From the NCBI RefSeq assembly GCF_020990385.1, contig NZ_CP087598.1, positions 912,001 through 976,000 of the forward strand: DNA of 64,000 nt, in the 5' to 3' direction. This document shows, one piece after another, positions 5,445-28,660 of the stretch. The stretch comes from Paracoccus sp. MA (lineage in GTDB: Bacteria > Pseudomonadota > Alphaproteobacteria > Rhodobacterales > Rhodobacteraceae). A program made the translations under genes and the position numbers. The first letter of the stretch is position 1. Each line of letters starts with the position of its first letter. Under the pieces are notes generated by a model. The model saw nothing but the letters and a program-made list of their open reading frames with translations, had not been told where the DNA came from and made no database searches.

Positions 5445-5512
5445 GCGAGCCTTTCCGAGGGGGTTTCCATGAAAATGGCATGCGGCAGGGCATCTGCCAA
5501 GACAATTGGTAT

Positions 5513-5527
5513 TTTTGTATTGCAAAA
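5513..5527. promoter_or_regulatory. Candidate GntR operator between divergent genes
   Basis: TTTTG-TATTG-CAAAA is a perfect inverted repeat with 5-base arms. It contains TTGTATTGCAA, close to the TTGTATACAA-like sites of FCD-type GntR proteins. It lies 69 bases upstream of the GntR start and 120 bases upstream of the dehydrogenase start, in an AT-rich patch that is the natural place for both promoters. Confidence 0.5.
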
Positions 5528-5646
5528 TTCCGAATCATTACGTATCTGGCATTTACATACATCAAAAGACCACTGGAGGAGGTCGCGCCGGAAACGCGGA
5601 CGGGATACCGGCTCGCGTCCCGACAACTCTCCAGCAAACAACAAGG

Positions 5647-9745: not shown

Positions 9746-10800
9746 CGCAGCTTTTCACCGCCGAGGCGCTGACCGATTATGCCCGGGCCATGTTCCTCGC
9801 CGCCGGGCTGCGCGAGGCCGATGCCGCCCTGGTCGCGGGCGATCTGGTCAAGGCCAACCTGCGCGGGGTGGACAGCCACGGCGTCAGCCGCATCCCGATG
9901 TATCTGGAGCGGCTGCGGCGCGGACTCGTCAACCCGCGCCCCGCGATTCACGTCAGCAAGGTCGCCGGGGCGGTCGCCCATGTCGATGGCGACAACGGCA
10001 TGGGCTTCATCGCCTCGGACGTGGCGATGAACACGGCCTGCGATCTGGCGGGCGAGATGGGAATCGGCCTCGCCGGCGTGCATCGCTCGACCCATTTCGG
10101 CATGGGGGCCTGCTATGCGCTGCGGGCGATCGAACGCGGCTATATCTCGCTGATCTTCACCAATTCCTCGCCGGCGATCCCGATGTGGGGCGGGCGGACC
10201 ACCTTCCTGGGCGCTAGCCCCATCGCGGCGGGCATCCCGGGCGGCAAGCATCCGCCCTATGTCATGGACATGGCGATGACCGTCATCGCGCGCGGCAAGA
10301 TCCGGCTGGCGGCGATGAAGGGCGACCCGATCCCGCCCGGGCTGGCGCTGGACGTGGACGGCAACCCGACCACCGATGCGGCCAAGGCGTTCGAGGGCGT
10401 CTGCCTGCCCTTCGGCGGCGTCAAGGGCTCGGTCCTGGGTACGCTGATGGACCTTTTGTCGGGCGTGTTCACGGGGGCCAATTTCGGGGGTAACGTGAAG
10501 TCGCTCTATTTCGACCACTCGGAACCGCAGAACGTCGGCCACCTGTTCCTTGCCATCCGGCCCGACCTGTTCATGGCCCTGACCGATTTCCAGGCGCGGA
10601 TGGATACGTTCTATGAACGCATCAAGGCGCTGCCCCGCGCCGCTGGCGTCGATGAGATCATGCTGCCCGGCGAGCCCGAGCAGCGGCGCGAGGATCAGCG
10701 CCGCCGCGACGGCATCCCCGTCACCGACAACGTGATCGCCGATCTGACCGCCGAAGGCGCGCGGCTGGGCGTCGTCTTCCCTTCGGCGCTGGCGGCATGA
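9742..10800 (+). CDS. Ldh2/MDH2-family NAD(P)-dependent malate/lactate-type dehydrogenase
   Basis: 352 residues. The family's catalytic region [15 protein letters not shown] is present with His46, along with [12 protein letters not shown], and [17 protein letters not shown] near residues 224-240. This fold includes malate/L-sulfolactate, ureidoglycolate and 2,3-diketogulonate dehydrogenases and imino acid reductases. The start overlaps tctA and the stop overlaps the isomerase gene, both by ATGA, so it is a core step of this operon. It probably oxidises a 2-hydroxy acid; the substrate is unknown. A paralogue at 42110 has a very different context. Confidence 0.88.
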
Positions 10801-11594
10801 CCCGGCTTTCGGCCCATATCGGCTATCTCTACGCCGATGTGCCGCTGGCCGATCGGCTGGCGGCGGCCGCCCGCGACGGCTTCACCGCCGTCGAGCATCC
10901 GGGGCCTTACGAGATTCCGGCGGCCGAAATGCGCAGGCGGCTCGACGATCTGGGCCTGGGCTTCTCGCAGATCACCTCGGGGATGGGGCGCGAGGGCGAA
11001 AAGGGTCTTGCCTGCCTGAAGGGGCGAGAGGCCGAGTTCCGTGCCGGTTTCGACCGGGCGCTGGATTACGCGCAGGCCATCGGCTGCCCCTATCTCCACC
11101 CGATGGCAGGCGTTGTCACAGGGGGCTGGCTGGATGCGGGCGAGGTCTATCGCACCAATCTCGGCTGGGCGCTGGAGCACTGCGAAGGCACCGGCGTGCG
11201 CCTGCTGGTCGAGGCGATCACCATCCCCGGCTATTACATGGGCACGCTGCGGGCGGCGGCGGAATTGCAGGATGCCTTTGCCCGCCGCTTCGACCTGCTC
11301 TTCGACAGCTATCACGCCGCCGTCCTGGGCGAGGATCCGGCGGCGTGGGTTGCGGCCAATGTCGACCGCATCGGCCATGTCCATATCGCCGATCATCCCG
11401 GGCGGCACGAGCCCGGCACGGGGCGCATCGACTTTTCGGCTCTGCTTTCGGCGCTGGCCGGCGCCGGCTACGGCGGCGCCATCGGCTTTGAATACATCCC
11501 CAGCATCCCCATGGCGGAAAGCGCGCGCTTTCTGTCCCGCTGGAAGCGCCTCCTCCCCGGCGCTTCCAGCCTTTCAACAGGAGTCACCCAATGA
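10797..11594 (+). CDS. hyi: Hydroxypyruvate isomerase-like (Hyi/OtnI) TIM-barrel protein
   Basis: 265 residues. Hydroxypyruvate isomerase signatures: an N-terminal LSAHIGYLYADVPLADRL and GFTAVEHPGPYEIPA, the metal-binding Glu in LLVEAITIPGYYM, Asp/His in LLFDSYHAAV, and GHVHIADHPGRHEPGTG followed by IGFEYIP. Family members isomerise hydroxypyruvate or 2-oxo-tetronate. The gene overlaps both neighbours by ATGA. Its N-terminus matches the peptide fused in front of aconitase at 19635-19782, so the two operons once shared this activity (inference). Confidence 0.88.
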   Translation: MTRLSAHIGYLYADVPLADRLAAAARDGFTAVEHPGPYEIPAAEMRRRLDDLGLGFSQITSGMGREGEKGLACLKGREAEFRAGFDRALDYAQAIGCPYLHPMAGVVTGGWLDAGEVYRTNLGWALEHCEGTGVRLLVEAITIPGYYMGTLRAAAELQDAFARRFDLLFDSYHAAVLGEDPAAWVAANVDRIGHVHIADHPGRHEPGTGRIDFSALLSALAGAGYGGAIGFEYIPSIPMAESARFLSRWKRLLPGASSLSTGVTQ

Positions 11595-14800: not shown

Positions 14801-15669
14801 CCGCACTTCCCGCCGGAGCCTGCGACAGCCATGTCCACGTCTTCGACCCGGACCATTTCCCCTATGTCCCGGACCGGGCCTATACGCCCGGTCCCGCCGG
14901 TTGCGAGGCATTGCAACAGCATATGGCGCGCCTTGGCCTGGGTCGGTGCGTCCTAGTGCAGCCCAGCGTTTACGGCACCGACAACCGCTGCCTGCTTTCG
15001 GCCCTGCAGGCGCTTGGCCCGCAGGTCTCGCGCGGGGTGGCGGTGATCGATCCGCAAACCGTCAGCGATGCCGAACTTGAGGCCCTGCACGCCGCCGGCA
15101 TCCGGGCCGTGCGGGTGAATTTCGAGGCCGGTGGCGGCAAGGCGGTCGACAAGCTGGCCACGATTCAGGCCACGGCGCGGCGACTCGCCGGCACCGGCAT
15201 GGCCGTGCAGCTTTACGTGGATACCGCGACTGCGGCCGCCGCGGTGCAGGCGGTCCGCGAGGTGCCGCTGATCCTTGACCATTATGCCGGCTTCAAGGCG
15301 GGAACTGAGGTATCCGGGCGCGATTTCACCGCCATCCTGCGGGCGCTGGAAAGCGGGAGGGTCTGGGTCAAGCTGTCGGCCCCCTATCGCTGCGGTTGCC
15401 GCAGCCCCGACCATTCGGAACTGCGCCCGGCGGCCGAGGCGATGATCGAGGCGGCGCCGCAGCGCATGGTCTGGGCGTCGGACTGGCCGCATACCGGCGG
15501 CGGCGCCGACCGGGCCGCCCGCAGCCCCGACCAGATCGAGCCGTTCCGCCAGATCGACAGCAACGCCGATCTTGGCCGGTTGCGGGCATGGGTGGCCGAC
15601 GATGCGCGGATGGCCGCGATCCTGACCGCCAATCCGGCCACGCTCTTCGATTTTCCGTCTTTCGCCTGA
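14797..15669 (+). CDS. Amidohydrolase-family TIM-barrel hydrolase (LigI/2-pyrone-4,6-dicarboxylate lactonase-like)
   Basis: 290 residues. The N-terminal CDSHVHVFDPDHFPY has the paired His metal or substrate ligands of cog3618-type amidohydrolases, and MVWASDWPHTGGG carries the conserved C-terminal Asp. LigI-like members hydrolyse lactones such as 2-pyrone-4,6-dicarboxylate or sugar lactones. The start overlaps the AbrB gene by ATGA. The end NPATLFDF matches the type of tail left at 22552-22638, where a related gene was deleted from the minus-strand operon. Confidence 0.83.
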   Translation: MTALPAGACDSHVHVFDPDHFPYVPDRAYTPGPAGCEALQQHMARLGLGRCVLVQPSVYGTDNRCLLSALQALGPQVSRGVAVIDPQTVSDAELEALHAAGIRAVRVNFEAGGGKAVDKLATIQATARRLAGTGMAVQLYVDTATAAAAVQAVREVPLILDHYAGFKAGTEVSGRDFTAILRALESGRVWVKLSAPYRCGCRSPDHSELRPAAEAMIEAAPQRMVWASDWPHTGGGADRAARSPDQIEPFRQIDSNADLGRLRAWVADDARMAAILTANPATLFDFPSFA

Positions 15670-15689
15670 TCGCATTCCGGGAGGATGTC

Positions 15690-17030
15690 ATGACCGCTTC
15701 TACCCCAACCCACGCCATTCCATCCGCCGAGCCGGAACGCCGCAGAAACGCATGGGCCCGCCTGATGGACCACGACCTCGGCATCATCCCGCTGCCCGCC
15801 TATGTGCTGCTGGTCGTCGTGCTGGCGAGCTTTGTTCATCTGGGCAAGGTCAAGGGCGACATTGCCACCGTCATCGGCATCATGGCCGCCTTCGCCTTCA
15901 CCCTGGGCGAGATCGGCAAGCGCCTGCCCGTCGTGCGCAATATCGGCGGCGCGGCGGTCGTCGTCACATTCGTGCCGTCCTATCTGGCCTATAAGGGCTG
16001 GATTCCCGAGCAGATGACCTCGGTGGTCGAGACCTTCTTCAAGTCCACCGGCGTGCTTTACGTGTTCATCGCGGCGGTGATCGTCGGCTCGATCCTCAGC
16101 ATGGACCGCTCGACGCTGATCAAGGGCTTCATGAAGATCTTCGTGCCGCTGGCGGTCGGCTCGATCTGCGCGGCGACGGTGGGCACCCTGGTCGGCACCT
16201 TGCTGGGGTTGGGCACTTGGGACACGTTCTTCTTCATCGTCGCGCCGATCATGGCCGGCGGCGTGGGCGAGGGGGCCATCCCGCTCTCGGTCGGCTATCA
16301 TGGCATCACCGGCATGGACCAAGGCGAGGTGCTGGCCCGGGTGATGCCGGCCATCCTGGTCGGCAACCTGACCGCCATCATCTGCGCCGGCGCACTCAGC
16401 TGGCTGGGTCGTCGCAAGCCGGCACTTACCGGCAATGGACAGCTGCAACCGCATGGCGACGATGATCTTCTGGCCGGCGCCGAGCCGGTGAAACCCGACG
16501 GAAACGTCCAGAACATCGCTGCGGCCGGCATGATCGCGGTCACGCTTTATCTGGCGGGCGCCCTGTCCCAGCAGCTTTGGGGCTTTCCGGCGCCGGTGGT
16601 GATGCTGGCGCTGGCGGTGGCGCTGAAGTTGTTCCACGGCATCACGCCCCGCCTGCAGGCCGGCTCCTATACGGTCTACAAATTCTGCCTGACCGCAATC
16701 GCCTATCCCATGCTTTTCGCCTTCGGCATCGTGCTGACGCCCTGGGAAAAGCTGATCGAGGGCTTCGCGCCCGCCAATCTGATCACCATCGTCGCGACCG
16801 TGCTGACGATGACGGCCTCGGGCTTTCTGACCGCGCGGCTGGTCAATCTTTATCCGATCGAATCCGCCATCGTGACCAGCACGCATAGCGGCATGGGCGG
16901 GGCAGGGGATATCGCCATCCTGTCGGCTTCGAACCGGATGATGCTGATGCCCTTCGCGCAGATCGCCACCCGCATCGGCGGCGGCATTACCGTGGCGCTG
17001 GCGCTGATCCTGATGGCGGCACTGGCTTGA
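15690..17030 (+). CDS. 2-hydroxycarboxylate transporter (2HCT family, CitS/MaeN-like)
   Basis: 446 residues with about 11-12 membrane segments. Both re-entrant GGxG loops of the 2HCT family are visible: GGVGEGAIPLS in the N-terminal half and GGAGDIAILSASNRM in the C-terminal half, followed by LMPFAQIATRIGGG. These are sodium- or proton-coupled carriers for citrate, malate or related 2-hydroxy acids. It is last in the operon, 20 bases behind the hydrolase with a GGGAGGA site. The operon thus carries two unrelated carboxylate importers, suggesting one for substrate and one for product or counter-substrate (inference). Confidence 0.92.
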   Translation: MTASTPTHAIPSAEPERRRNAWARLMDHDLGIIPLPAYVLLVVVLASFVHLGKVKGDIATVIGIMAAFAFTLGEIGKRLPVVRNIGGAAVVVTFVPSYLAYKGWIPEQMTSVVETFFKSTGVLYVFIAAVIVGSILSMDRSTLIKGFMKIFVPLAVGSICAATVGTLVGTLLGLGTWDTFFFIVAPIMAGGVGEGAIPLSVGYHGITGMDQGEVLARVMPAILVGNLTAIICAGALSWLGRRKPALTGNGQLQPHGDDDLLAGAEPVKPDGNVQNIAAAGMIAVTLYLAGALSQQLWGFPAPVVMLALAVALKLFHGITPRLQAGSYTVYKFCLTAIAYPMLFAFGIVLTPWEKLIEGFAPANLITIVATVLTMTASGFLTARLVNLYPIESAIVTSTHSGMGGAGDIAILSASNRMMLMPFAQIATRIGGGITVALALILMAALA

Positions 17031-17037
17031 CGCATCG

Positions 17038-17065
17038 CCGGCGGCGTGGCTTTCCGCGCCGCCGG
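17038..17065. terminator. Bidirectional stem-loop between convergent operons
   Basis: CCGGCGGCG (17038-17046) and CGCCGCCGG (17057-17065) form a perfect 9-bp stem with a 10-base loop. The element sits exactly in the 49-base gap between the 3' ends of the 2HCT carrier gene and the aconitase gene. No strong U-run follows on either side, so it may be a weak or Rho-assisted terminator. Confidence 0.6.
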
Positions 17066-17079
17066 TTCCCCTCGTCGGG

Positions 17080-19782
17080 TCAGTTCGCCGCCTTGGCCCG
17101 AGCCGCGCGGTCGAGGATCAGGGGCAGGAGGCCGCCTTGCGCCAGCGTCTCGATCTCAAGGCTGGTTTCGATGGCGGCGGTGGCGTCGAATTCCTCGACC
17201 GTGCCCGCGGTGCGATGGATCGCCACCGCGACAGGCGCGCGCGGTTGCAGCCGCGCCGGATCGAGCGCGATCTCGATCCGGTCGGCGACCGTCAGCGCCA
17301 GCGATTGCGGCGATGTTCCGGCGGGCAGGCGCAGCGGCAGGATGCCCATGCCGATCAGGTTCGCGCGGTGGATGCGCTCGAAGCTTGTCGCCAGCACCGC
17401 CCGCGTGCCCAGAAGCGCCGCCCCCTTGGCCGCCCAGTCGCGCGACGAGCCCATGCCGTAACGCTCGCCCGCGACGATGACGACCGGGGTGGAGCTCTCG
17501 CGGTAATGCTCGGCCGCGCGCCAGAGCGGCAGGATCCGCCCGTCGGGCAGGATGGTGCTGCCGGGCGGGATGTCCTCGGCCAGCAGGTTGCGCACCGATT
17601 TGTTGGTGAAGAGCCCGCGCAGCATCGCCTGCCAATTGCCGCGCCGCGAGGAGAAGACGTTGAGGTCGTCGGGCCTCTCGCCGCGCTCGATCAGGTAGCG
17701 GCCGGCCTCGCTGTCGGCCGGGATGGCGCCGGCGGGCGAGATGTGATCGGTGGTGATGTCGTCGCCCAGCACCAGGATCGGCGCCGCAATGATCTGCCGC
17801 GGCCGCGTGCCGGGGAAATCCGCGAAGGGCGGGCGGCGGATATAGGTCGAGGCCGGATCCCAGGGAAACAGCGGCGCGTCCGGGGCGTCGAGGTCGCGCC
17901 AGAGCCCGCTCGCCTCGGCCTGGTCATAGGCGGTGGCATAGTCGTCGGCATCCTGCGCCCGGGCCAGCGCCGCGTCGATCTCGGCCCCCGAGGGCCAGAG
18001 ATCGGCCAGCCCCACGCCCGGCGCGATCTCGTCGTGCAGGATGTCGCGTTCGACGTCTCCGGCCAGGGCGAAGGCCACGACCAGCGGCGGCGAGGCAAGG
18101 AAGCCTGCCTCCAGCTGCGGATGCACCCGGCCGGGAAAGTTGCGATTGCCCGACAGGACCGCGACCTGCAGCCGTCCCGCGGCCTGTGCCTCGACGGCCG
18201 TGTCCGGCAGCGGACCGGAATTGCCGATGCAGGTGGTGCAGCCATAGCCGACGATGCCGAAACCGACGGCCTCCAGATCCTCCAGCAGGCCGGCGCGCTG
18301 CAGATAGCGTTGCGCGGTGGGCGATCCCGGCGCCAGCGAGGTCTTGACATGGGCGGGCGGGCGCAGCCCCAGGGCCCGGGCCTTGCGCGCGACCAGCCCC
18401 GCGGCGACCAGCAGGCGCGGGTCGCTGGTATTGGTGCAACTGGTGATGGCGGCGATGGCGACGGCGCCGTCCGGCGCCTGGCCCGGCGGGGCGGGAAGGG
18501 GCGCATGGCCGCGCATCGCCGCCGTGGCCTGGGCGGTGGCCGAGGCCGGGATGCGGTCCTGCGGCCGGCGGGGGCCGGCGACGCTGACCTCGACCGCGCC
18601 CAGGTCCAGGTCGATCACCTCGGTGAAGACCGGGCTCTGGCTTGGATCGAACCACAGGCCCTGACGGCGGCAATATTCCTCGACCAGCGCGCAATGGTCG
18701 GGCGTGCGGCCGGTCTGGCGCAGATAGGTGATAGTCGCCTGATCGACCGGGAAGAAGCCGGAATTGCCGCCGAATTCCGGCGTCATGTTGGCGACGACCG
18801 CGCGATCCCCGGCCGAGAGCGCCGAGACGCCGGGCCCGAAGAACTCGACGAAACGGTCGGCCAGATCGATGCGGCGCAGCCGTTCCGTGACGGTCAGCGC
18901 CAGATCGGTGGCAGTCACGCCCTCGCGCAGCCGCCCGGTCAGCCGCACGCCCACCACCTCGGGCACGCGCAGCATCACCGGCATGCCGAACATCACGCTT
19001 TCCGCCTCGATCCCGCCGACGCCCCAGGCCAGCACGCCGATGCCGTTGATCATCGGCGTATGGCTGTCGGTGCCGATCAGCGTGTCGGGCATGATCCAGC
19101 CGTCGCGTTCCGTCACCACCATCGCCAGCCGTTCCAGGTTCAGCGTGTGCATGATGCCGGTCCCCGGCGGGTGGGCGCGGAAATTCGCCAGGCTGTTCGT
19201 TGCCCATTTCATGAAGCGGTAACGCTCGGCATTGCGGCGGTATTCGTTCCGGATATTGCGGGCCATGGCGCCGGGGGCGGCATAGGCGTCCACCGCCAGC
19301 GAATGATCGGTCGAGACATCGACCGGCAGCACCGGGTTCAGAAGCTGCGGGTCGTGCCCGGCCTCGGCCAGGGCCGAGCGCATGGCGGCGATATCGACCA
19401 GCGCCGGGCCGCAGGTGGTGTCGTGCATCAGCACGCGGCCCGGCAGGAAGGGGATCTCGGCTTCCGAGCGGCCCTTTTCCAGCCAGGCGAGGATCGCGGC
19501 ACGGGCGGCCTGCGGGTCGGGCGCATTGCGGAGCACGTTTTCCAGCAGCAGGCGATGGATATGCGGCAGGCGGATCAGGTCGGCTCCTGCGGCGGCGGGC
19601 AGGTCGATGATTTTCTGGTCCTGCCGCAACACGTCGGACTGCTCATGCGGTTCGGGCGCCGGAATGTCGCAGCGGTCCGGACGTTCGACGGCGTCAAAGC
19701 CGACGCGCCCTGCCGCACCCGGCCGCCCGGCCAACGGCAAGCCGCCATGCAGATGGGCAATATAAGCCGGCAGCCGGCTCAT
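17080..19782 (-). CDS. acnA: Aconitate hydratase (AcnA type) with a foreign Hyi-like N-terminus
   Basis: The aconitase part is complete in its key features: Cys ligands of the 4Fe-4S cluster at about residues 448 (TSCTNTSDP), 514 and 517 (GYGCTTCIGNSG), LIGTDSHTPMINGIG in domain 1, and RNFPGRVHP and GERYGMGSSRDWAAKGA in the swivelling domain. Residues 1-50 are not aconitase but match the start of hydroxypyruvate isomerase. Recognisable aconitase begins near QKIIDLPAAAGADLIRLPHI. The ATG at 19782 is the old isomerase start; a GTG at 19632 would give a near-normal aconitase but has no clear binding site; 19842 is also open. The enzyme interconverts citrate, aconitate and isocitrate (or analogues) and is last in its operon. 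Confidence 0.9.
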   Translation of the reverse strand: MSRLPAYIAHLHGGLPLAGRPGAAGRVGFDAVERPDRCDIPAPEPHEQSDVLRQDQKIIDLPAAAGADLIRLPHIHRLLLENVLRNAPDPQAARAAILAWLEKGRSEAEIPFLPGRVLMHDTTCGPALVDIAAMRSALAEAGHDPQLLNPVLPVDVSTDHSLAVDAYAAPGAMARNIRNEYRRNAERYRFMKWATNSLANFRAHPPGTGIMHTLNLERLAMVVTERDGWIMPDTLIGTDSHTPMINGIGVLAWGVGGIEAESVMFGMPVMLRVPEVVGVRLTGRLREGVTATDLALTVTERLRRIDLADRFVEFFGPGVSALSAGDRAVVANMTPEFGGNSGFFPVDQATITYLRQTGRTPDHCALVEEYCRRQGLWFDPSQSPVFTEVIDLDLGAVEVSVAGPRRPQDRIPASATAQATAAMRGHAPLPAPPGQAPDGAVAIAAITSCTNTSDPRLLVAAGLVARKARALGLRPPAHVKTSLAPGSPTAQRYLQRAGLLEDLEAVGFGIVGYGCTTCIGNSGPLPDTAVEAQAAGRLQVAVLSGNRNFPGRVHPQLEAGFLASPPLVVAFALAGDVERDILHDEIAPGVGLADLWPSGAEIDAALARAQDADDYATAYDQAEASGLWRDLDAPDAPLFPWDPASTYIRRPPFADFPGTRPRQIIAAPILVLGDDITTDHISPAGAIPADSEAGRYLIERGERPDDLNVFSSRRGNWQAMLRGLFTNKSVRNLLAEDIPPGSTILPDGRILPLWRAAEHYRESSTPVVIVAGERYGMGSSRDWAAKGAALLGTRAVLATSFERIHRANLIGMGILPLRLPAGTSPQSLALTVADRIEIALDPARLQPRAPVAVAIHRTAGTVEEFDATAAIETSLEIETLAQGGLLPLILDRAARAKAAN
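19635..19782 (-). pseudogene. 5' fragment of an OtnI/Hyi-like isomerase fused to aconitase
   Basis: About 49 codons from the ATG at 19782 read SRLPAYIAHLHGGLPLAGR, then GRVGFDAVERPDRCDIPAPE. They align with the intact Hyi at 10797: [19 protein letters not shown], then RDGFTAVEHPGPYEIPAAE. After this point the frame runs straight into aconitase with no stop. The rest of the isomerase, about 215 residues with the metal site, is gone. OtnK and OtnC lie just upstream in the same operon, and OtnI (Hyi family) is their known partner in tetronate catabolism, so the lost gene was probably otnI. Confidence 0.75.
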
Positions 19783-19874
19783 GTCGCAAAGCGCGGCAGG
19801 CCGCCGGGGGACGTGATCTTCCTGCGGATTTCGACACGACATGATCCCGGTGTTTCCCTGTGTGACATGCTCAT
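19779..19874 (-). CDS. Possible 31-residue small ORF before the isomerase/aconitase fusion
   Basis: The ATG at 19874 is preceded by AGGTCCGGAGACA and opens a 31-residue frame (MSMSHRETPG... ending PRFAT). Its TGA overlaps the ATG at 19782 as ATGA, the arrangement used throughout this window for translational coupling. The peptide was not recognised. It could be a leader that drives translation of the fused gene, the tail of another deleted gene, or chance. Confidence 0.3.
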   Translation of the reverse strand: MSMSHRETPGSCRVEIRRKITSPGGLPRFAT

Positions 19875-19911
19875 TGTCTCCGGACCTTTCTGCAGCGTTG
19901 ACCCGGACGGC

Positions 19912-20628
19912 TCATTCCGGGATGACCGCATCCGCCATGCCATGCCGCCGGAAACTGTCGGCCACCGTGCCGTCCGCCTTCATCCGTGCGATCAATTCGC
20001 TGGCGGCGGCCAGAGCCTCGGAACGCCCCTTGGGAACGGCAATCGCGGTTTCTGCGACATGGAAATTGCCTTCGGTGATACGGGTGCCCGGCAGACGCCG
20101 CACCAGATCGTCGAGCGCAAGCCGGCCAAGCGCCAAAGCGTCGCATTCCCCGGCCTCGAACGCCGCAACCGCCTGGGGCAGGGCGGCCGCGCCTGTCACC
20201 TGCGCGCCCGCTGCCGCCTTCTGCGCAGAGCGGATGGTCGCGGTTTCGGCCACGCCCATGATCCTGACGCCGGGGCGATGCAAATCCTCGGCCCGGAGGA
20301 AGGGGCTGGTCTCTCGCACCAGATAGCTGCTTTCCCCGACATGATAGGCCGGGCCGAAATCCACGATCTCGCGGCGGGCTGCGTCGACAGGGGTGAAGGA
20401 CAGATCCCAGATGCCTTGGTCGGCGGTGGCGATGATCTCGCCCGAGCTGGACAGAGGCACCAGCCGCACCGGCAGGCCGGTGATCTCGCCGATGCGGCGG
20501 GCCAGATCGACGGTGACGCCTTCGGGTTCGGTCCCGCCCTCGGGGATCCGGGTCCAGACCGCGGATTTCGTCGGACCCACGGCGATCGCAATGCGGATTT
20601 CCCCGGTCGGGGCCAGAATTTCGAACAT
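19912..20628 (-). CDS. Periplasmic-binding-protein-like (SBP_bac_3) protein without a signal peptide
   Basis: 238 residues. The start after AGGAGA gives FEILAPTGEIRIAIAVGP directly: the first beta strand of a type II binding protein with no signal peptide. The body is typical of amino acid-binding proteins (LARRIGEITGLPVRLVPL, WDLSFTPVDAARREIVDFGP, CDALALGRLALDDL). As written the protein stays in the cytoplasm, so it cannot serve an ABC importer in the usual way. It sits 10 bases behind otnC. It may be a cytosolic sensor, sponge or enzyme built on the fold; a mis-assigned start hiding a leader is unlikely because upstream codons run into otnC. Confidence 0.82.
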   Translation of the reverse strand: MFEILAPTGEIRIAIAVGPTKSAVWTRIPEGGTEPEGVTVDLARRIGEITGLPVRLVPLSSSGEIIATADQGIWDLSFTPVDAARREIVDFGPAYHVGESSYLVRETSPFLRAEDLHRPGVRIMGVAETATIRSAQKAAAGAQVTGAAALPQAVAAFEAGECDALALGRLALDDLVRRLPGTRITEGNFHVAETAIAVPKGRSEALAAASELIARMKADGTVADSFRRHGMADAVIPE

Positions 20629-20638
20629 CTCGCTTCTC

Positions 20639-21280
20639 CTATCGCATGGCGGCGGCATAGCGCGCTTCCAGCGCCTCGATATCCGCGCCCTTCAGCAGGC
20701 GGACCTTGCGGCCAGCCAGCAGGACGGCCAGTTTCGCGGTTTCCTCCAGCTCCTCGGCGGCATAGACCGCCGAGCGCAGATCCCGGCCCGAGACGACCGG
20801 GCCGTGATTGGCCAGCAGCACGGCCGGATGCCGGCCCTCCAGCCCCCGGATCAGCTCGCCCGAGGCCGGATCGCCGGGGATGACATAGGGGATCAGCGGC
20901 ACCCGCCCGACGCGCATCACCACATAGGGGGTCAGCGGCGGGATCGTATCTTCGGGGTCCAGATCCTCAAGGCAGGACAGCGCGGTCGCATGGGTCGAAT
21001 GCAGATGCACCACCGCGCCGGTGCCGGGGCGGGTTTCGTAGAAGGCACGATGCAGGAAGACCTCTTTCGAGGGCCTGTCGCCGCCGACATGATTCCAGTC
21101 CCGGTCCAGCCGCGAGATGCGGTCGGCCTCAAGGAAACCCAGGCAGGAATTGGTCGGCGTCATCAGCCAGCCATCCGGCAGCGCCACGCTGATATTGCCG
21201 GCCGAGCCGACCGAAAAGCCGCGCTCGTAAAGCGAGCGCGCCAGGCGGACCAGTTCTTCGCGCAATTCCTGTTCGGTCAT
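20639..21280 (-). CDS. otnC: Class II aldolase/adducin-family protein, OtnC-like 3-oxo-tetronate 4-phosphate decarboxylase
   Basis: 213 residues, the size of L-fuculose-phosphate aldolase relatives. Metal-binding His residues are visible in VHLHSTHATALSC and a third in LANHGPVVSGRDL; SVGSAGNISVALPDG is the phosphate-binding part. The start overlaps the OtnK kinase gene by ATGA. OtnK plus OtnC is an established pair: the kinase phosphorylates 3-oxo-tetronate and OtnC decarboxylates the product to dihydroxyacetone phosphate. The assignment rests on that pairing as well as on the family. Confidence 0.85.
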   Translation of the reverse strand: MTEQELREELVRLARSLYERGFSVGSAGNISVALPDGWLMTPTNSCLGFLEADRISRLDRDWNHVGGDRPSKEVFLHRAFYETRPGTGAVVHLHSTHATALSCLEDLDPEDTIPPLTPYVVMRVGRVPLIPYVIPGDPASGELIRGLEGRHPAVLLANHGPVVSGRDLRSAVYAAEELEETAKLAVLLAGRKVRLLKGADIEALEARYAAAMR

Positions 21281-22530
21281 GCCTTGCCTCTCATCATGTC
21301 CAGAGCGCGGATGAAGAAATCCTCATCCCCAAAATTGCCGGATTTCAGCGCGAGGGCCAGCCCCTCCGCCGAGGTCAGGACCGGCACGCCGGGCGCGATC
21401 TCGGCTCCGATCTCCAGCGCGCCGAGGTCCAAAGCCGAGACCACCGCGCCCGAGGTCTCGCCCCCCGCAACCACCAGCCGGCCAACGCCCGAGGCGACCA
21501 GGCGGCGGGCGACATCGCCGAACAGGGCGTCAAGCCGTCCGGCGACCGCTTCGCGGCCATATCGCGCCTGCATCGCGGCGACCTGCCCGGGGTGGCCCGA
21601 AGAAAAGGCCAGAGGGGCGCGGTCCGGGTGATGCAGCAGGAAAGCGGCGATGTCATCCACGCCCAGCCGGTCCTGCATCACTGCCTCGACGTCGATTTCC
21701 AGCACCGGATGGTCGCGCCCATGCGCCTCGATCTGGCGGCGCGTCATGCCCGAGCAGCTTCCGGCAAGGATCGCGCCCGGCGCGTCATTGGCCCGGGCCG
21801 CCGCTGCACCGAGGCGGCCTGCGCCCGGGAAATTGCGCGCAAGGCCAAGCGCGATGCCGGAGCCGCCGGTCACCAGGCGCGCCCCGGCGACGGCGCGGCC
21901 GATCTGCATCAGATCGGCGTCGTCGATGGCGTCGACCACGACCAGCGTGGCATCGCTGTCGGCCAGCGCCTGCCGGATGGCGTCGGCGCCCTGTCGCACC
22001 ACCGGCGCGGGCACCAGCCCGACCGGCCCCGGCACCTGATGGGACAGCCAGCGGCGGATATCCGGGTCGGTCATCGGGGTCAGGGGATGATCTTGCATCC
22101 CGCTTTCGCTCAGCAGGCGGTCATTGACGAAAAGGTGCCCCTGATAGATCGTGCGACCCATCGTCGGAAAGGCCGGGCAGACCACGACGCCGCTTGCGCC
22201 CAGCCGCTCGGCCAGCGCCTGCGCCACCGGGCCGATATTGCCCTCAGGTGTGGAATCGAAGGTCGAGCAGTATTTGAACACGATCTGCCGACAGCCCTGC
22301 GCCAGCAGCCAGTCCAACGCGGCAAGCGACTCCCGCACCGCCTCGGCCACCGGGGTCGAGCGGCTTTTCAGCGACACCACCCCGGCCTCGACGCCGGTAT
22401 CGGCGGGCTGGTCGGGAACGCCCAGATATTGCACGACGCGCAGGCCGGGACTGTCCTCATGCCCCTTGGCCAGCGTGTTGGCGATATCGCTCGCCCCGGT
22501 AAAATCGTCCGCGATCACCCCGATCAGCAT
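21277..22530 (-). CDS. otnK: Four-carbon acid sugar kinase, OtnK-like (DUF1537 family)
   Basis: 417 residues, full length for the family. The N-terminal domain carries IADDFTGASDIANTLAKG, with the substrate-binding Asp pair. The C-terminal nucleotide domain carries VVAGGETSGAVVSALDL. These kinases phosphorylate 3-oxo-tetronate or tetronate acids. The start follows GAGGAA, and the stop overlaps otnC. A dehydrogenase that oxidises threonate or erythronate would normally feed it; the isopropylmalate-type enzyme at 27453 or a gene elsewhere could do so (inference). Confidence 0.87.
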   Translation of the reverse strand: MLIGVIADDFTGASDIANTLAKGHEDSPGLRVVQYLGVPDQPADTGVEAGVVSLKSRSTPVAEAVRESLAALDWLLAQGCRQIVFKYCSTFDSTPEGNIGPVAQALAERLGASGVVVCPAFPTMGRTIYQGHLFVNDRLLSESGMQDHPLTPMTDPDIRRWLSHQVPGPVGLVPAPVVRQGADAIRQALADSDATLVVVDAIDDADLMQIGRAVAGARLVTGGSGIALGLARNFPGAGRLGAAAARANDAPGAILAGSCSGMTRRQIEAHGRDHPVLEIDVEAVMQDRLGVDDIAAFLLHHPDRAPLAFSSGHPGQVAAMQARYGREAVAGRLDALFGDVARRLVASGVGRLVVAGGETSGAVVSALDLGALEIGAEIAPGVPVLTSAEGLALALKSGNFGDEDFFIRALDMMRGKA

Positions 22531-22551
22531 GGTTTTCCTCTCTGCGCTCGG

Positions 22552-22638
22552 TCAGGCGCCAATGCCGTAGAGCGCCGCCGCATTGTCCACGAACAGCTTT
22601 TGCCGCGCTCCTCCGGCGCGATCACTTCTTCAGCCCAG
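22552..22638 (-). pseudogene. C-terminal scar of a deleted amidohydrolase
   Basis: Overlapping the end of the racemase gene, one frame reads EEVIAPEER. After a shift of one base another reads QKLFVDNAAALYGIGA and then stops. Together these look like the last 25 or so residues of an amidohydrolase of the cog3618 type, whose usual ending is a DNPAxLYGF-like motif. No start or body is present. A LigI-like gene of this class is intact at 14797 in the parallel plus-strand operon. Confidence 0.6.
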
Positions 22639-23283
22639 AAGGCTTCTCAGCCTTGCGATTGCCGCCGGCGGGCTGGCGAAGACCGGAATCTCCGTCACCG
22701 CCCGCACCGCCTCCAGCGCATGGGTCGTCGAAAAATGCGCCAGCGTGATCGCGTCGAAGCCGGTCAGCCCCTTGGCGGCCTCGGCCACCAGCCGGTTATG
22801 CGTTGCGATATCCCCGGCCCTGACCGCCTCGATGGCGCCGGGCGCGAGGATCGAGGTCAGGCGGGCATCCGGGTTCAGCCGGGCGGCCTCGTCGCGGAAT
22901 TCCTCCTCCATCGAGGCGGCGGCGGGCGGGAAGGTATAGATCATCGCCACCCGGCCGCCGGCGCGGATCGCGGACTGGAACATCGCCTCGTTGGGCTTCA
23001 GCACCGGCACCGGGCATTCCGCCGCCGCAGCCTCGATGGCGCTGCCGAAGGCGGAACAGGTGAACAGCACCGCCCGCGCGCCCGTGCTGACGCCGTAGCG
23101 GGCCAGCGCCGCGATCCGCTCGGCCAGTTGCGGGGTGATCCCGCCGCCGGCCGCCCGGTCGGCCGAGAGGCTGTAATCCATGATGTCGATGGGCTCGGCC
23201 TCGGGCCAGTCGCGTGCGAAGGCGGCATGGATCGGGTCCACCGCGATGGGGGTGGCGTGGATCAGGGCAATACGGGGCGGCAT
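22630..23283 (-). CDS. Asp/Glu/hydantoin racemase-family protein
   Basis: 217 residues, normal length. The first catalytic region VLFTCSAFGSAIEAA has its Cys. At the second site, where racemases carry another Cys, the sequence reads ITLAHFSTTHAL with none. A two-base racemase is therefore unlikely; a one-Cys isomerase or lyase-type member of the superfamily is more probable. The gene lies between an ABC importer and the OtnK/OtnC pair on the same strand, so the substrate is likely a hydroxy or oxo acid handled there. Confidence 0.82.
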   Translation of the reverse strand: MPPRIALIHATPIAVDPIHAAFARDWPEAEPIDIMDYSLSADRAAGGGITPQLAERIAALARYGVSTGARAVLFTCSAFGSAIEAAAAECPVPVLKPNEAMFQSAIRAGGRVAMIYTFPPAAASMEEEFRDEAARLNPDARLTSILAPGAIEAVRAGDIATHNRLVAEAAKGLTGFDAITLAHFSTTHALEAVRAVTEIPVFASPPAAIARLRSLLG

Positions 23284-23336
23284 CGGATGGTCCTTGGGAA
23301 AATGGCGGACGCGCGGTCAGGCGCGCCCTTGCGACG

Positions 23337-24413
23337 TCATGCGGCCTGTGCCGGGAACACCCAGACATGTTCGGGCGAGATGTCGGCATAGACCCGGCCG
23401 GCGGGCAGGCTGTGCGCCCCGTGGGCCTTCAGCGCGAAATCGCCGCGCCGCAGCCGGTATTCCCAGCGGTCGCCGAGATAGAGGCTGTCGTCCAGCTGCA
23501 TCTCGATCCGGCCCGCGCCGGGCTCTTGCGCGACGCGGATCTGTTCGACCCGGATCACCGCCTGCGCATCCGCGCCGGGCGCAAGGCCGGCCGGATCGCG
23601 CACCGCCCCGTTCAGCTGCCAGCCGTCGCCGCCCAGCAGGACCTGGGGCCCGTTCACCGACAGCACCTTGCCGCGCGCGATATTGTTCGCGCCAAGGAAA
23701 TCCGCCGCGTAGAAGCTGGTCGGGTTGGTATAGATGTCATGCGGAGAGCCGTCCTGCACGATCCGCCCGTTTTCCAACAGCAGGATATGGTCGGCCGCGG
23801 CCAGCGCCTCGGTCTGGTCATGCGTCACCAGGATGGCGCAGATCTCCAGGTCCAGGATCAGCTTGCGGATCCAGTAGCGCGCTTCCTCGCGCAGCTTGGC
23901 GTCGAGGTTCGACAGCGGCTCGTCCAGCAGCAGCACGCGCGGCTCGTAGACCAGCGCCCGGCAGATGGCCACCCGCTGCTGCTGCCCGCCCGACAACTGG
24001 CTGGGATAGCGGTCGGCCAGATGGCCGAGGCCAAGGCGGTCCAGGATATGCTGGATGCGCCTGCCCATCTCGGCCGCGTTCACGCCGCGCAGCTTCAGCC
24101 CATAGCCCACGTTTTCCTTGACCGTGCGGTGCGGCCACAGCGCATAGGACTGGAACACCAGCCCGATATTGCGCTGTTCGGGCGGCAGCTGGATGGCTTT
24201 CTCGCTGTTCAGCGCGATCTTGTCGCCGATCTTGATATAGCCGATCTCGGGCTGTTCGAGCCCCGCGATACAGCGCAAGAGCGTGGTCTTGCCCGAGCCC
24301 GAGGCGCCCAGCAGCGCCACGATCGAGCCGCGTTCCCCTTTCAGCGAGGCGCCTTTCAGGATCTGCAGGCCGCCCAGCCATTTCTGGACATTTTCAACGA
24401 TGAGTTCAGTCAT
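23337..24413 (-). CDS. ABC transporter ATPase (PotA/FbpC type)
   Basis: 358 residues. Walker A GASGSGKTTLLRCIAG, signature LSGGQQQRVAICRAL and Walker B VLLLDEPLSNL are intact, followed by a TOBE-type C-terminal domain (residues about 240-358) usual in iron, polyamine and 2-aminoethylphosphonate importers. The ATG at 24413 overlaps the end of the permease gene by eight bases. It energises the importer formed with the next two upstream genes. Confidence 0.93.
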   Translation of the reverse strand: MTELIVENVQKWLGGLQILKGASLKGERGSIVALLGASGSGKTTLLRCIAGLEQPEIGYIKIGDKIALNSEKAIQLPPEQRNIGLVFQSYALWPHRTVKENVGYGLKLRGVNAAEMGRRIQHILDRLGLGHLADRYPSQLSGGQQQRVAICRALVYEPRVLLLDEPLSNLDAKLREEARYWIRKLILDLEICAILVTHDQTEALAAADHILLLENGRIVQDGSPHDIYTNPTSFYAADFLGANNIARGKVLSVNGPQVLLGGDGWQLNGAVRDPAGLAPGADAQAVIRVEQIRVAQEPGAGRIEMQLDDSLYLGDRWEYRLRRGDFALKAHGAHSLPAGRVYADISPEHVWVFPAQAA

Positions 24414-26160
24414 GGATTTTCGCTCCCAGACGAAGGGCAAGGGTCAGACCGGCGGCGGTCATGATGATCGAGATGAAGGCCAGCGCGGCGATCGTGTCCA
24501 TCGCCCCGGTCTGCAGCAGCGTGACCATGAGCGAGCCGATCACCTCGGTTCCCGCGCCCATCAGATAGACGCCGGTGGCGTATTCGCGCAGGAAGATGAT
24601 CATGATCAGCGCCCAGGCGCCGGCCAGGCCGGGACGCACGATGGGGATCACCACGTCGCGCCAGGTGCGGCCGATGGTGGCGCCGGTGGTGCGGGCGGAT
24701 TCCTCAAGCTCGGGCGCGACTTGGATCAGCGTGCCCTGCAACAGACGCAGGCCATAGGACAGCCCGACGATCATATAGGCCACGAACAGCGCGATCAGCG
24801 TCGGGCGCAGCGGCGTCAGGAAGGGCACGAACAGGAACACCCAGAAGAAGGCCAGGCCGACCACCAGCCCCGGCAGCGCGCGCGGCAGCAGCACGATATA
24901 GTCCAGCACCGTGTTGCTGTGGCCGGTGTTGCGATGCCCGGCAAGGCCGATCAGCAGATAGAGGAACACCGCCGCCGCGCCGCCCACCACGCTGAGCAGC
25001 AGCGTGTTCACGATCCCCCGGCTGAGGCTGGGCACGCTGAGCATCCGGTCGAAATTGGCCAGCGTCAGGTGATCCCACAGGCTGATGCCCTGTCCCCAGG
25101 CGCTGACGAAGGCGCGCACGGTGATGCCGCCGATGGGCAGGACCACCGACACGAACAGCCACAGCCCGATGATGGACAGCGCGATGGTCTGACCCTTCGT
25201 TCCCAGCTTCAACCGCGTGGTCCGGGCGCCCTTGCCGCCAAGCGCGGCATAGCGGCGGCTGTTGCGCAGCAGGCGGCGCTGGAAGAAGACCAGCGGCAGG
25301 GTGATCAGGATCAGCACCACCGCGACCACCGCCATCAGCTGATAGGTCGGCACGCCGAACAGCGTCGTCAGCTTGTAGATATAGGTGGTCAGGACCAGGA
25401 TCCCGTTCGGATCGCCCAGCACCAGCGGGATGCCGAAGGTTTCGAAACCCAAGAGCAGGTTCAGCGCGGCGGCGAAGATCAGCGCCGGCAGCACCATCGG
25501 CAGGGTCACGTCGCGCGAGACCTGCCAGATGCTGGCGCCCGAGGTGCGCGCCGCCTCTTCCAGGTCCGAGGGCAGGTTGCGCATCGCGGCCGAGACATAC
25601 AGGTAGACATGCGGCACATGGCTGAGACCGGCGATCAGGATGATGCCCGGCAGCGAATAGAGGTTCCAGGGCACGAAGCCGAAGACGCTGCGCATCCACA
25701 TCGACACGAAGCCCGACGGCCCGACCGAGACGGTATAGCCGAAAGCCAGCACGATGGACGAGATGAACATCGGCACCAGCACCAGGATTTCCAGCGTCCG
25801 CTTGAAGCGGATGTCGGTCCGGGTCAGCAGGAAGGCCAAAAGCCCGCCAAGCGGGACCGCGATCGCGACCATGCCGACTGCGAAGACGGTCGTCGTCCAC
25901 AGGGCCTTCCAGAACATCGGGTCGGTCAGCACATAGCTGTAGGCGCTGAAGCTCAGCGTGGCGCGGGGGCTGAAGAAGGGCCCGTCGAGAAAGCTTTGAT
26001 AGATGATGAGGCCGACCGGCGCCATGACGGCGATGGCGAGCAGGCCGATGACGATGATGCGATACAGGCCCGCATCGCTGCGATGGCGGATCTTCGGCGG
26101 CGGGGCGGGGATCCCGGTCCCGGCACTTGCCCGCGCGGCAAGGATGGAATTGGCGGTCAT
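24406..26160 (-). CDS. ABC transporter permease with two fused BPD domains (FbpB type)
   Basis: 584 residues, about twice a single permease. Two permease halves each have about six helices and an EAA-like loop: EEAARTSGASIWQVSRDVTL in the first half, and EESARTTGATIGRTWRDVVI in the second. This fused form is common in Fe(III), putrescine/spermidine-type and phosphonate importers. It lies between the binding protein and ATPase genes in one operon. Confidence 0.92.
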   Translation of the reverse strand: MTANSILAARASAGTGIPAPPPKIRHRSDAGLYRIIVIGLLAIAVMAPVGLIIYQSFLDGPFFSPRATLSFSAYSYVLTDPMFWKALWTTTVFAVGMVAIAVPLGGLLAFLLTRTDIRFKRTLEILVLVPMFISSIVLAFGYTVSVGPSGFVSMWMRSVFGFVPWNLYSLPGIILIAGLSHVPHVYLYVSAAMRNLPSDLEEAARTSGASIWQVSRDVTLPMVLPALIFAAALNLLLGFETFGIPLVLGDPNGILVLTTYIYKLTTLFGVPTYQLMAVVAVVLILITLPLVFFQRRLLRNSRRYAALGGKGARTTRLKLGTKGQTIALSIIGLWLFVSVVLPIGGITVRAFVSAWGQGISLWDHLTLANFDRMLSVPSLSRGIVNTLLLSVVGGAAAVFLYLLIGLAGHRNTGHSNTVLDYIVLLPRALPGLVVGLAFFWVFLFVPFLTPLRPTLIALFVAYMIVGLSYGLRLLQGTLIQVAPELEESARTTGATIGRTWRDVVIPIVRPGLAGAWALIMIIFLREYATGVYLMGAGTEVIGSLMVTLLQTGAMDTIAALAFISIIMTAAGLTLALRLGAKIHD

Positions 26161-26218
26161 GTCTGGTTACTCGTCCTGCAAGGGGGTGCCGCGCAAACGG
26201 CGACGGCACCCGGGAGGA

Positions 26219-27313
26219 TCATTTGCCGATGGCGGCGTTCCACTCGCGGAAGAACTCCACGCGCTTTTGCGGCGCCATGTAGGTCAGCAGGTCCTCGCTG
26301 ACCGCGATGGGCTTCAGGCTGCCGCCCACGCGCTCGTTGAGCGAATCGATGTTCAATCCGGTCGTCACGTCGCTGCGCACCGAGGGCAGCCCGCCCGCCG
26401 CCAGGGCCGACTGCCCCTCATGCGAAAGCATGAAGTCGATCAGCAGCTTGCCGGCGTCGGGATGCGGGGCGCCCTTGGTCAGCAGCGCAAGACGCGAGAA
26501 GGCGGCGGTGTAATCCTCGCCGAAGGCGACGCCCAGGTTCGGGCTGTCCTCGACCCATTCCAGCGCGTAGGAGCCGATGATGTTGATCGACATGACATTC
26601 TCGCCCGACACCACGGTCTCGCGCATCGAACCGGAGCTGGAATAGGTGCGCACGCCGACGGCGCCCAAGGCCTTTGCCAGATCCCAGAAATTGTCTGTCT
26701 GCTCGACGTCGTTGGTGTGATGCAGGAAGCCGGTGCCGCTTTTTTCCGGGTCGAAGGTGGCGACCTTGCCCCGCAGCTTGTCCCGGTTTTCGTTCAGATA
26801 GGCGATCAGATCGGCCCGGGTCCGGGGGAATTCCTCCTCGGAGATCGCGCCGGTATTGTAGATGATCCCGATCGGCTCGACCGTGGTGGCATAGATCTGG
26901 TCCTGATAGACCGCCCATTCCGGCAGGTTGCCGGTTTCGGGGGACGCGTAGGTTTCCGCATAGCCGTCGGCGGCCAGCACCATCTGCAGGTCCATGGCGG
27001 AACTCCAGACGATATCCGCGCCCATCTGGTTCGCGGCGGCCTCGGAAATCGCGCGGTTATAGGCGCCATTGGTGCCCAGGTCGTTATATTCGACCTGGAT
27101 GCCGTATTTCTGCGTGAAGGCGTCCAGCATGGCCTGGGCCTGGGCAATGTCGGTAGAGGTGTAGACCACCACCTTTCCCTGCGATTTGGCCGCCTCGACA
27201 AGTTGCGCATAGTCGTTGGGATAGCCTGCGGGAACATCCTGGGCCCATCCCGCCCCGGCCGCCAGGGCCAGAGCGCAGCCGGTTATCGCGAATGCGCGTC
27301 TTGTGAGTTTCAT
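26219..27313 (-). CDS. ABC transporter substrate-binding protein (iron/polyamine-type, extracellular family 1)
   Basis: 364 residues. The start at 27313 is chosen because GGGAGGA lies six bases upstream; an ATG at 27319 touches that site. The signal peptide covers about residues 1-24 (MKLTRRAFAITGCALALAAG, then WAQD). Mature motifs are those of Fe(III)/2-aminoethylphosphonate-type binders: VVVYTSTDIAQAQAMLDAF, VEPIGIIYNTGAI and SIRE-like helices. No Tyr iron ligands could be assigned by eye. In this operon an organic acid or its metal complex, for example ferric citrate, is a fair guess (inference). Confidence 0.9.
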   Translation of the reverse strand: MKLTRRAFAITGCALALAAGAGWAQDVPAGYPNDYAQLVEAAKSQGKVVVYTSTDIAQAQAMLDAFTQKYGIQVEYNDLGTNGAYNRAISEAAANQMGADIVWSSAMDLQMVLAADGYAETYASPETGNLPEWAVYQDQIYATTVEPIGIIYNTGAISEEEFPRTRADLIAYLNENRDKLRGKVATFDPEKSGTGFLHHTNDVEQTDNFWDLAKALGAVGVRTYSSSGSMRETVVSGENVMSINIIGSYALEWVEDSPNLGVAFGEDYTAAFSRLALLTKGAPHPDAGKLLIDFMLSHEGQSALAAGGLPSVRSDVTTGLNIDSLNERVGGSLKPIAVSEDLLTYMAPQKRVEFFREWNAAIGK

Positions 27314-27452
27314 CGTCATTCCTCCCTGAATTACGAGATATGGTGATGCCGCTGCCGCCGATGCGCGGCTCGCCTGCCGATCTTTCCGGGCCCCTTCTGG
27401 CCCGATATCATTCGCGGAGCCCTCCTCCGGGCCCCGCGAAGCCGGTGCTGCC

Positions 27453-28535
27453 TCAGGCCGCCGACGAAGCCGCCGGCCTTGCGATCTCGGCCGCGACCAG
27501 CGCGCCGAAGGCGTCGGTGTTGACCGAGCCGCCCAGATCGCGGGTGCGGTTTTCCGGCCTTTCCAGCACGGCATCCACCGCGCGGTCGATCTCGGCCCCG
27601 GCGGCGCACAGCGCCTCGTTGCCGTTGCGCTCGCCCAGCCAGCTCAGCATCATCGCCACCGACAGGATCAGCGAGCAGGGGTTGGCGATGTTCTGGTTCT
27701 CGATATCGGGCGCCGATCCGTGCTGCGCCTGCGCGCAGACCAGCCCGGTTTCCGCATTGGCGTTGATCGAGCCGGCCAGCCCCAGGCTGCCCGACAGTTC
27801 CGAGGCCAGATCCGAGATGATGTCAGAATAGAAATTGGTCGAGACGATGACGTCGTAGCGCGAGGGGTCGCGCACCAGATGCGCGGCCATGGCGTCGATG
27901 ATGACATCGTTCAGCTCGACTTCGGGGAAGTCCTTGTGGACCTTGCGCACCCAGTCGAGGAAGAAGCCGTCGGTGATGATGAAGTTGTTGGCCTTGTGGA
28001 CCGCCGTCACCTTCTTGCCCCGCCGCATGGCCAGCTTGAACGCTTCGCGGGCGATCCGCTCGCAGGCCTTCGAGGTCAGCTTGCGCACCGACAGCGCCAC
28101 GTCCTCGGTCGGCATGAACTCACCAAGGCCCTTGAACATGTTGCGGTCGGGATAGAAGCCCTCGGTCGCCTCGCGCATGATGACCAGGTCCATCTTCTTG
28201 CCCGGCAGGAAGGGCCGGGTCCGCGCCGGGCGGACATTGGCGTAAAGGTCCAGCCTGACGCGGAACCCGCCCGAGACGTTCACCCCGCCCTGGTCGCGCG
28301 GCGGATAGTCCATATGCGATTGCGGGCCAAGGATGATCCCGTCATAGGTTTTGGCTTTTTCGATCACTTCATCGCGCAGCGTCGTGCCGTATTTCGCCAG
28401 GCTGGGGAACCCAACATCCTCGTAGTCGCTGGCGATACCCAGTCCGAAGCGCGCATTGGCCGCCTCGAGAACTTCCATTGTGGCCTTGGTAATTTCGGGC
28501 CCGATGCCGTCGCACGGCAGGACGAGGAAACGCAT
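27453..28535 (-). CDS. Isopropylmalate/isocitrate dehydrogenase-family oxidoreductase (second copy)
   Basis: 360 residues, clearly paralogous to 5647: LVLPCDGIGPEIT against LVLPGDGIGPEIT at the start. DLVIMREATEGFYPDRN, VTAVHKANNFI and STNFYSDIISDLASEL match the substrate, Lys and metal motifs. REATEGFY replaces the usual RENTEGFY, a change next to the substrate Arg that may reflect a different acid. First gene of the minus-strand operon, it faces the GntR gene at 28661 exactly as the first copy faces its own GntR. The likely role is oxidation and decarboxylation of a substituted malate, tartrate or threonate-like acid. Confidence 0.9.
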   Translation of the reverse strand: MRFLVLPCDGIGPEITKATMEVLEAANARFGLGIASDYEDVGFPSLAKYGTTLRDEVIEKAKTYDGIILGPQSHMDYPPRDQGGVNVSGGFRVRLDLYANVRPARTRPFLPGKKMDLVIMREATEGFYPDRNMFKGLGEFMPTEDVALSVRKLTSKACERIAREAFKLAMRRGKKVTAVHKANNFIITDGFFLDWVRKVHKDFPEVELNDVIIDAMAAHLVRDPSRYDVIVSTNFYSDIISDLASELSGSLGLAGSINANAETGLVCAQAQHGSAPDIENQNIANPCSLILSVAMMLSWLGERNGNEALCAAGAEIDRAVDAVLERPENRTRDLGGSVNTDAFGALVAAEIARPAASSAA

Positions 28536-28583
28536 TCATCTTCTCCCTTCTGCCGCGCTGCGAATCGAGGCGGCCTGCGGTCA

Positions 28584-28613
28584 GATTGGCTTTGTTGCGA
28601 AATAAAGGCAATC
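28584..28613. promoter_or_regulatory. 30-base near-perfect dyad between divergent GntR and dehydrogenase genes
   Basis: GATTGGCTTT (28584-28593) and AAAGGCAATC (28604-28613) are inverted repeats with one mismatch in ten, around a 10-base spacer. It lies 48 bases from each start codon (28535 minus, 28661 plus), an ideal place for one dimer to control both promoters. The spacer half TTTGTTGCGAAA loosely recalls the site at 5513. Confidence 0.6.
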
Positions 28614-28660
28614 ATAATTTTGGATTTGTGCGTCAAGAAAATCATCTGTAGGATAGGGCC

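Follow-up and report, generated by a model that had tools for sequence, protein, structure and literature searches.

A natural in-frame fusion joins the start of a Hyi-type isomerase gene to an AcnA-family aconitase gene in Paracoccus sp. MA

The closest described relative of the aconitase considered here is the native acn of Paracoccus denitrificans (NZ_CP141053, G090 and G075), whose body shares 95.9% protein identity over 845 residues with the window aconitase. The P. denitrificans gene lies elsewhere, behind a GntR/FCD gene, and has its own Shine-Dalgarno (SD) sequence GGGAGGA and ATG, with no Hyi extension. Aconitase genes also occur close to otnK and otnC: the order is otnK-otnC-rraA-acnA in Agrobacterium pusense (NZ_CP123353), and an otn module with acnA beyond GntR is found in Shinella (NZ_OZ000532), acnA being an ordinary separate gene in both. 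These two modules bring together genes for GntR, an isopropylmalate-dehydrogenase-like protein, an ABC transporter, OtnK, OtnC and AcnA, as the window does; unlike in the window, rraA or abrB adjoins otnC. One paper describes a threonate pathway of three steps that does without OtnI, but with another type of OtnC (PMC12540250).

The window is a stretch of 64,000 nucleotides of Paracoccus sp. MA (NZ_CP087598.1, positions 912,001 to 976,000; genome G000 below), in which the reading frame at 17080-19782 is a natural in-frame gene fusion: real, rare, recent and of limited reach. A protein search with its residues 1-100, in which 966 candidates were scored, returned one protein, P0001 (JGI metagenome, 6.6 kb contig, 900 aa), which is about 97% identical to the window protein and has the same first methionine, the same Hyi-aconitase fusion and the same first 50 residues. 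The 23 residue differences between the two all lie past residue 50, two of them just past the junction. P0001 stands for a 90% cluster with 15 sequences on one contig; because native aconitases may be among the other members, it is counted as one further case of the fusion. In the open-licence literature no Hyi-aconitase fusion was found in print, nor any paper linking aconitase with 3-oxo-tetronate kinase or DUF1537; the papers listed on aconitase N-terminal extensions or gene fusion, and on fusions and start codons, looked unrelated as judged from the title and the start of the abstract.

The chimeric gene and its two parts

The frame is open from 19842 to 17080 on the reverse strand (920 codons), and an in-frame ATG at 19782 reduces it to 900 codons (Table 1). 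From this ATG, residues 1-44 align without gaps to residues 1-44 of the Hyi-type isomerase encoded at 10797, with a score of 105 that none of 5000 shuffles reached (mean 28, maximum 58); the other five frames scored 23-26. A profile of 124 Hyi proteins, from which the chimera was left out, matched the chimeric frame at profile positions 1-44 with an E value of 2.4e-7. The shuffle and profile statistics rule out a chance resemblance, and these alignments confirm a Hyi-family origin for the first 44 residues. The earlier note had read some 49 codons as Hyi-like and set the junction near 19635; the homology holds, with a measurable span of 44 codons, and the junction can be placed only within about 19650-19621. 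The isomerase shares no more than this segment with the fusion: the significant profile match is confined to positions 1-44, and the complete xylose-isomerase-like TIM barrel that follows residue 44 in the isomerase is absent. The Pfam and NCBIfam models did not detect the 47-residue piece alone, the Pfam search gave no AP_endonuc_2 match in the chimeric frame, and the chimera was absent among the genes listed in an OtnI model search of G000.

Table 1. Features of the fusion locus and its surroundings (window coordinates)
Feature	Position	Strand	Basis or remark
Intact Hyi-type isomerase gene, related to the fused piece	10797..11594	+	ORF list, Pfam/NCBIfam, alignment
CitS-like transporter gene	15483..17030	+	Convergent with aconitase; family match below curated cut-off
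Aconitase segment	17049..19621	-	95.65% DNA identity to acn of P. denitrificans NZ_CP141053, G090, G075; includes about 30 bases past the stop
Chimeric ORF, Hyi-derived start and AcnA-family aconitase	17080..19782	-	900 aa from ATG19782; ORF list, Pfam/NCBIfam, same methionine in P0001
Junction interval, residues PHEQSDVLRQ	19621..19650	-	Hyi profile stops at position 44; P. denitrificans acn DNA identity stops at 19621
Possible internal GTG start (Met in P0001)	19630..19632	-	No good Shine-Dalgarno sequence
44 codons homologous to Hyi-type isomerase N-terminus	19651..19782	-	Relaxed at codon positions 1 and 2
31-codon leader ORF	19779..19874	-	ATG19874 or ATG19868, Shine-Dalgarno-like GGAG; TGA overlaps ATG19782 as ATGA
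SBP3-like gene, upstream of the fusion	19912..20658	-	Pfam, collinearity
otnC and otnK	20639..22530	-	NCBIfam above cut-off

Among the 120 Hyi proteins listed, the best ungapped match of the fused piece has 25 of 44 identical residues. At the DNA level, a 150-base match between the fused region and the window hyi gene extends 17 bases upstream of the hyi ATG. This 17-base extension is too weak to support a derivation of the leader from the dehydrogenase gene at 9742.

Downstream of the Hyi-derived piece the sequence reads as a complete AcnA-type aconitase, in agreement with the earlier note. Both Pfam domains exceed their gathering scores on the 920-codon frame (Aconitase at 127-595, 475.8 bits; Aconitase_C at 715-841, 101.7 bits), and three cysteines, C449, C515 and C518 in the numbering of the 900-residue protein, are invariant in 41 aligned proteins; we take these to be the Fe-S ligands. 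The chimera passes the NCBIfam subfamily model NF009520 (PRK12881; 1219.2 against a cut-off of 905) and narrowly misses the equivalog TIGR01341 (936.3 against 945), so that it is AcnA-like without being filed as an aconitate hydratase equivalog. The best NCBIfam aconitase model starts at residue 68 of the 920-codon reading, and the match to IRP1 (2b3x) starts at residue 49 of 900, which is IRP1 residue 11; the first 47 or so residues of the chimera are therefore extra. The enzyme itself is probably unchanged by the fusion and would be active as an aconitase.

Origin of the aconitase segment and its start of translation

The aconitase segment is closer to P. denitrificans than its genomic background is. 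The housekeeping acnA region is 84.4% identical to that of G090 over 5429 bases, plus 90.1% over 454 bases, and 89.9% identical to that of G075 over 6656 bases, while the rest of the P. denitrificans acn locus is matched in G000 at 65-87%, except for one 30-base piece at 93%. Since the segment itself reaches 95.65%, we infer a recent exchange, that is, an incoming aconitase. Its 5' end is incomplete: the native P. denitrificans start region reads MPFASTIRGQKIIDLP, with an SD energy of -10.9, and in the window copy the native SD, the ATG and about seven codons are missing. A relative of the window GntR protein stands directly before the aconitase, on the same strand, in 11 of the 13 aconitase loci compared. 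Genome G113 follows the window order up to 17049, and collinearity with G035 covers 19915 onwards, its border being the stop of the SBP3-like gene, so that the fused unit fills a gap between two conserved blocks.

Further features were seen around the segment. Between the convergent citS and aconitase genes lies a strong hairpin (17037-17066; -29 to -32 kcal/mol, with none of 200 shuffles as good, on either strand). A search for terminator-like sites with a T run gave none near this convergence. The SBP3-like gene has no signal peptide by eye, and counterparts occur in G035 (87% identical) and G042 (76%). Genome G122 retains only the last 103 codons of an aconitase (L107, 9022-9330), seemingly a broken copy.

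We propose that an additional AcnA-type aconitase gene, like that of P. denitrificans, arrived between the citS operon and the otn module, probably by recombination, and was stripped at its 5' end of its ribosome site, its ATG and about seven codons. The remaining coding sequence would have been joined in frame to the first 44 or so codons of a decayed Hyi-type gene, with translation starting at the former hyi ATG19782, coupled through ATGA to the stop of the 31-codon leader. The product would be a 900-residue aconitase with a disordered tail of about 47 residues that has no isomerase function and is tolerated by the enzyme. To this explanation as a whole, in which an incoming aconitase captured the start of a decayed hyi, we assign a probability of roughly 0.62.

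The start site is the step at which the main rival enters. Anti-SD energies are -1.5 for ATG19782 and -1.9 for GTG19632, neither having an SD, and -6.6 for the leader ATG19868; a further in-frame candidate, ATG19842, has a weak and distant upstream site (-4.9). Because native acn starts span SD energies from -2.5 (L036) to -10.9, a weak SD excludes nothing. The window hyi gene shows the same ATGA overlap with its dehydrogenase gene and a weak SD (-3.0), and this likeness, together with the GGAG of the leader, makes coupled initiation at ATG19782 the best guess and the most likely start on sequence grounds. The rival holds that the Hyi piece is a decayed leader and that the aconitase starts internally at GTG19632 (ATG in P0001), giving a nearly native protein of about 850 residues. 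In its favour, both sequences offer a start codon at this position, residue 71 of the 920-codon frame (GTG in the window, Met in P0001); there is a weak promoter-like match at 19787-19759 (one found against 0.2 expected), and some native orthologues have weak SDs as well. However, GTG19632 itself has no good SD, and a protein starting there would carry 7 residues ahead of the IID motif, against 11-15 in the native orthologues read that keep this motif. In addition, neither stops nor indels have arisen in the frame across the 47 worn codons, and the gene prediction of P0001 begins at the upstream ATG. We consider an internal start unlikely, while regarding it as a serious competitor.

The otn neighbourhood

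The window order is GntR/FCD, Iso_dh, solute-binding protein, ABC permease, ATPase, racemase-like, otnK, otnC, sbp3 and the fusion, with OtnK and OtnC just upstream of the chimera as had been noticed earlier. Six genes of G035 compared with the window otn module show 82-95% protein identity, and otnK matches occur in 35 of 61 genomes. In the window (19783-29638) and at loci L132, L133, L034, L116 and L117, genes for GntR, an Iso_dh-like protein, a transporter, a racemase-like protein, OtnK, OtnC and AcnA form a recurrent module with no otnI next to it; in L116 and L117 otnC and acnA are separated by an AbrB-like gene. The window holds two genes of the isocitrate/isopropylmalate dehydrogenase family (Iso_dh), at 5506-6714 and 27453-28535.

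The earlier note had explained the chimera by a deletion in the tetronate operon in which most of the operon's otnI was lost and a resident aconitase came under its start, so that the pathway would lack its isomerase unless the 10797 gene replaced it. Of the 17 otnK/otnC loci compared, 12 were chosen by otnK similarity (L057-L067 and L034, which had entered through its aconitase and ranks fifth by otnK). Three more were found by their aconitase (L115-L117) and two by a DNA search including aconitase (L132, L133), so the aconitases of these five do not count as independent evidence. The fused piece does lie downstream of otnK-otnC, and an OtnI-type gene follows otnC in two of the 12 otnK-chosen relatives (G036, G015) and lies about 10 kb off in G003. 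Against a deletion, most of the 12, and the nearest modules, those of G035 and G038, have no OtnI-type gene adjoining otnC. Moreover, the Hyi genes linked to otnC in G036 and G015 share only 34-38% identity with the 10797 protein; the fused piece matches the 10797 type and finds no match in them at E 0.01. A simple deletion also fails to explain why the aconitase stands so far above the acnA background in its identity to P. denitrificans.

Nor is the supposed loss of the pathway's isomerase supported. No otnI stands beside otnK and otnC in the window, which thus lack the arrangement of a four-step L-threonate operon, and the 10797 gene scores 187.4 against the OtnI equivalog NF043033, below its cut-off of 325. 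This cut-off was passed by no gene in 13 Paracoccus genomes and by one in 14 control genomes. On other contigs, G000 has two OtnI-like genes that score above the 10797 gene, also below 325 (G000:C1:421634-422377, 287 bits; G000:C3:389899-390642, 259 bits). With most otnK/otnC loci lacking a neighbouring isomerase and these two better OtnI-like genes elsewhere, a loss of otnI is not needed here, and we regard the deletion as improbable.

Of the 12 otnK-chosen relatives, two (G024, G060) have this type of aconitase within the stretch fetched, and in G012 it is about 9 kb away from otnK; none of the 12 stretches has an aconitase and an OtnI-type gene together. Among genomes found through their aconitase, G095, G110 and G117 have an AbrB-like gene separating it from a nearby otnC; otnK could be read in two of them, G117 being cut at a contig end. 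Judged by these gene orders, aconitase genes recur near otnK-otnC without being universal there, and no otnI is to be expected.

The Hyi-derived tail and the rarity of the fusion

Codon comparisons indicate that the Hyi piece is relaxed as an isomerase though its frame is still open. Between the tail and the window hyi, differences at codon positions 1/2/3 number 8/14/15, with dN 0.287 and dS 0.556, the latter being the smallest dS of the piece (about 36 synonymous sites). Functional hyi genes compared with the window hyi give 3/2/21 (G082), 3/1/21 (G113), 2/8/18 (G244) and 3/5/19 (G505), with dN 0.053-0.141 and dS 0.675-1.088; dN/dS is about 0.25-0.52 for the tail against five clade genes and 0.05-0.21 for these four pairs. 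Fisher tests of positions 1 and 2 against position 3, not independent of each other, give P values of 0.002 (G082), 0.0007 (G113), 0.024 (G505) and 0.08 (G244, not significant). Where five functional genes are invariant, the tail departs from them at 6/38, 9/35 and 0/10 sites (codon positions 1, 2 and 3), and leaving out each functional gene in turn gives 0-1, 0-3 and 2-5 differences. The distant functional gene of G261 shows 16/11/25 against the window hyi, so a flat pattern over codon positions is not unique to debris. In the alignment, the Hyi orthologue of G113 (L110, 8818-9561) carries an in-frame stop; the completeness of this genome is 84%.

A different view of the tail is that it is a useful new N-terminal element, serving for instance stability, partner binding or control. 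Between the window protein and P0001 there are no differences in the 50 residues of the tail region and 23 in the 850 elsewhere. Free drift predicts about six tail differences (P 0.002), or about three (P 0.055) when the 14 differences past residue 800 are left out, and relative to the plain aconitase rate the zero gives P 0.63; some constraint on the tail is possible, at a marginal level. The tail is predicted to be unstructured: an AlphaFold model from 41 rows has a well-predicted body (mean pLDDT 83.1 overall, pTM 0.86), and residues 1-50 have a pLDDT of about 26 and no secondary structure, a low confidence that is partly expected with the Hyi tail present in two of the 41 rows. Set beside this prediction, the relaxation relative to Hyi, the marginal constraint estimate and the occurrence in one lineage only, a useful tail has a very slim chance. 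There is a slight chance that this is a young enzyme with a new conserved N-terminal element gained by start-codon capture, its expression having moved from a GntR-linked gene to a coupled catabolic operon.

Within the sequences searched the extension is new to aconitase, as the earlier note had supposed, P0001 apart: the aconitases of relatives have no Hyi tail. In a search with a 67-residue query around the junction over genus, family and class genome sets that overlap, matches were found in 6 of 125 genus genomes (G000 included), 10 of 394 family genomes and 5 of 385 class genomes, and no second chimera appeared in any set. Among the matches listed, all but the chimera stop by query residue 57, before the aconitase part, at 40-55% identity. 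Those in G025 and G085 (L113, L114) do not match the full Hyi protein, so not every junction match is a Hyi gene, and most of those in the family and class sets are candidates for one. A tblastn search of a plasmid collection (72,556 records) gave no match and also missed ordinary Hyi genes, being sensitive to close copies only; a genome_contigs search confirmed none, and both searches may omit records close to the window. P0001 was the sole match of the Hyi profile to the best 120 of 7995 aconitases. Taken together, the genome, plasmid, contig and aconitase searches rule out a widespread Hyi-aconitase domain architecture. An assembly error, like chance resemblance with its shuffle and profile statistics, is of negligible probability, as P0001 has the same junction with different residues nearby and an artefact would require both assemblies to share the error.

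While the fusion is otherwise a local curiosity of one lineage, it offers a clean, recent example of a coding gene without its own start being rescued by in-frame fusion to gene debris, with the native acn of a sister species still recognisable at 95.65% identity. In addition, AcnA-type genes recur beside otnK-otnC without otnI.
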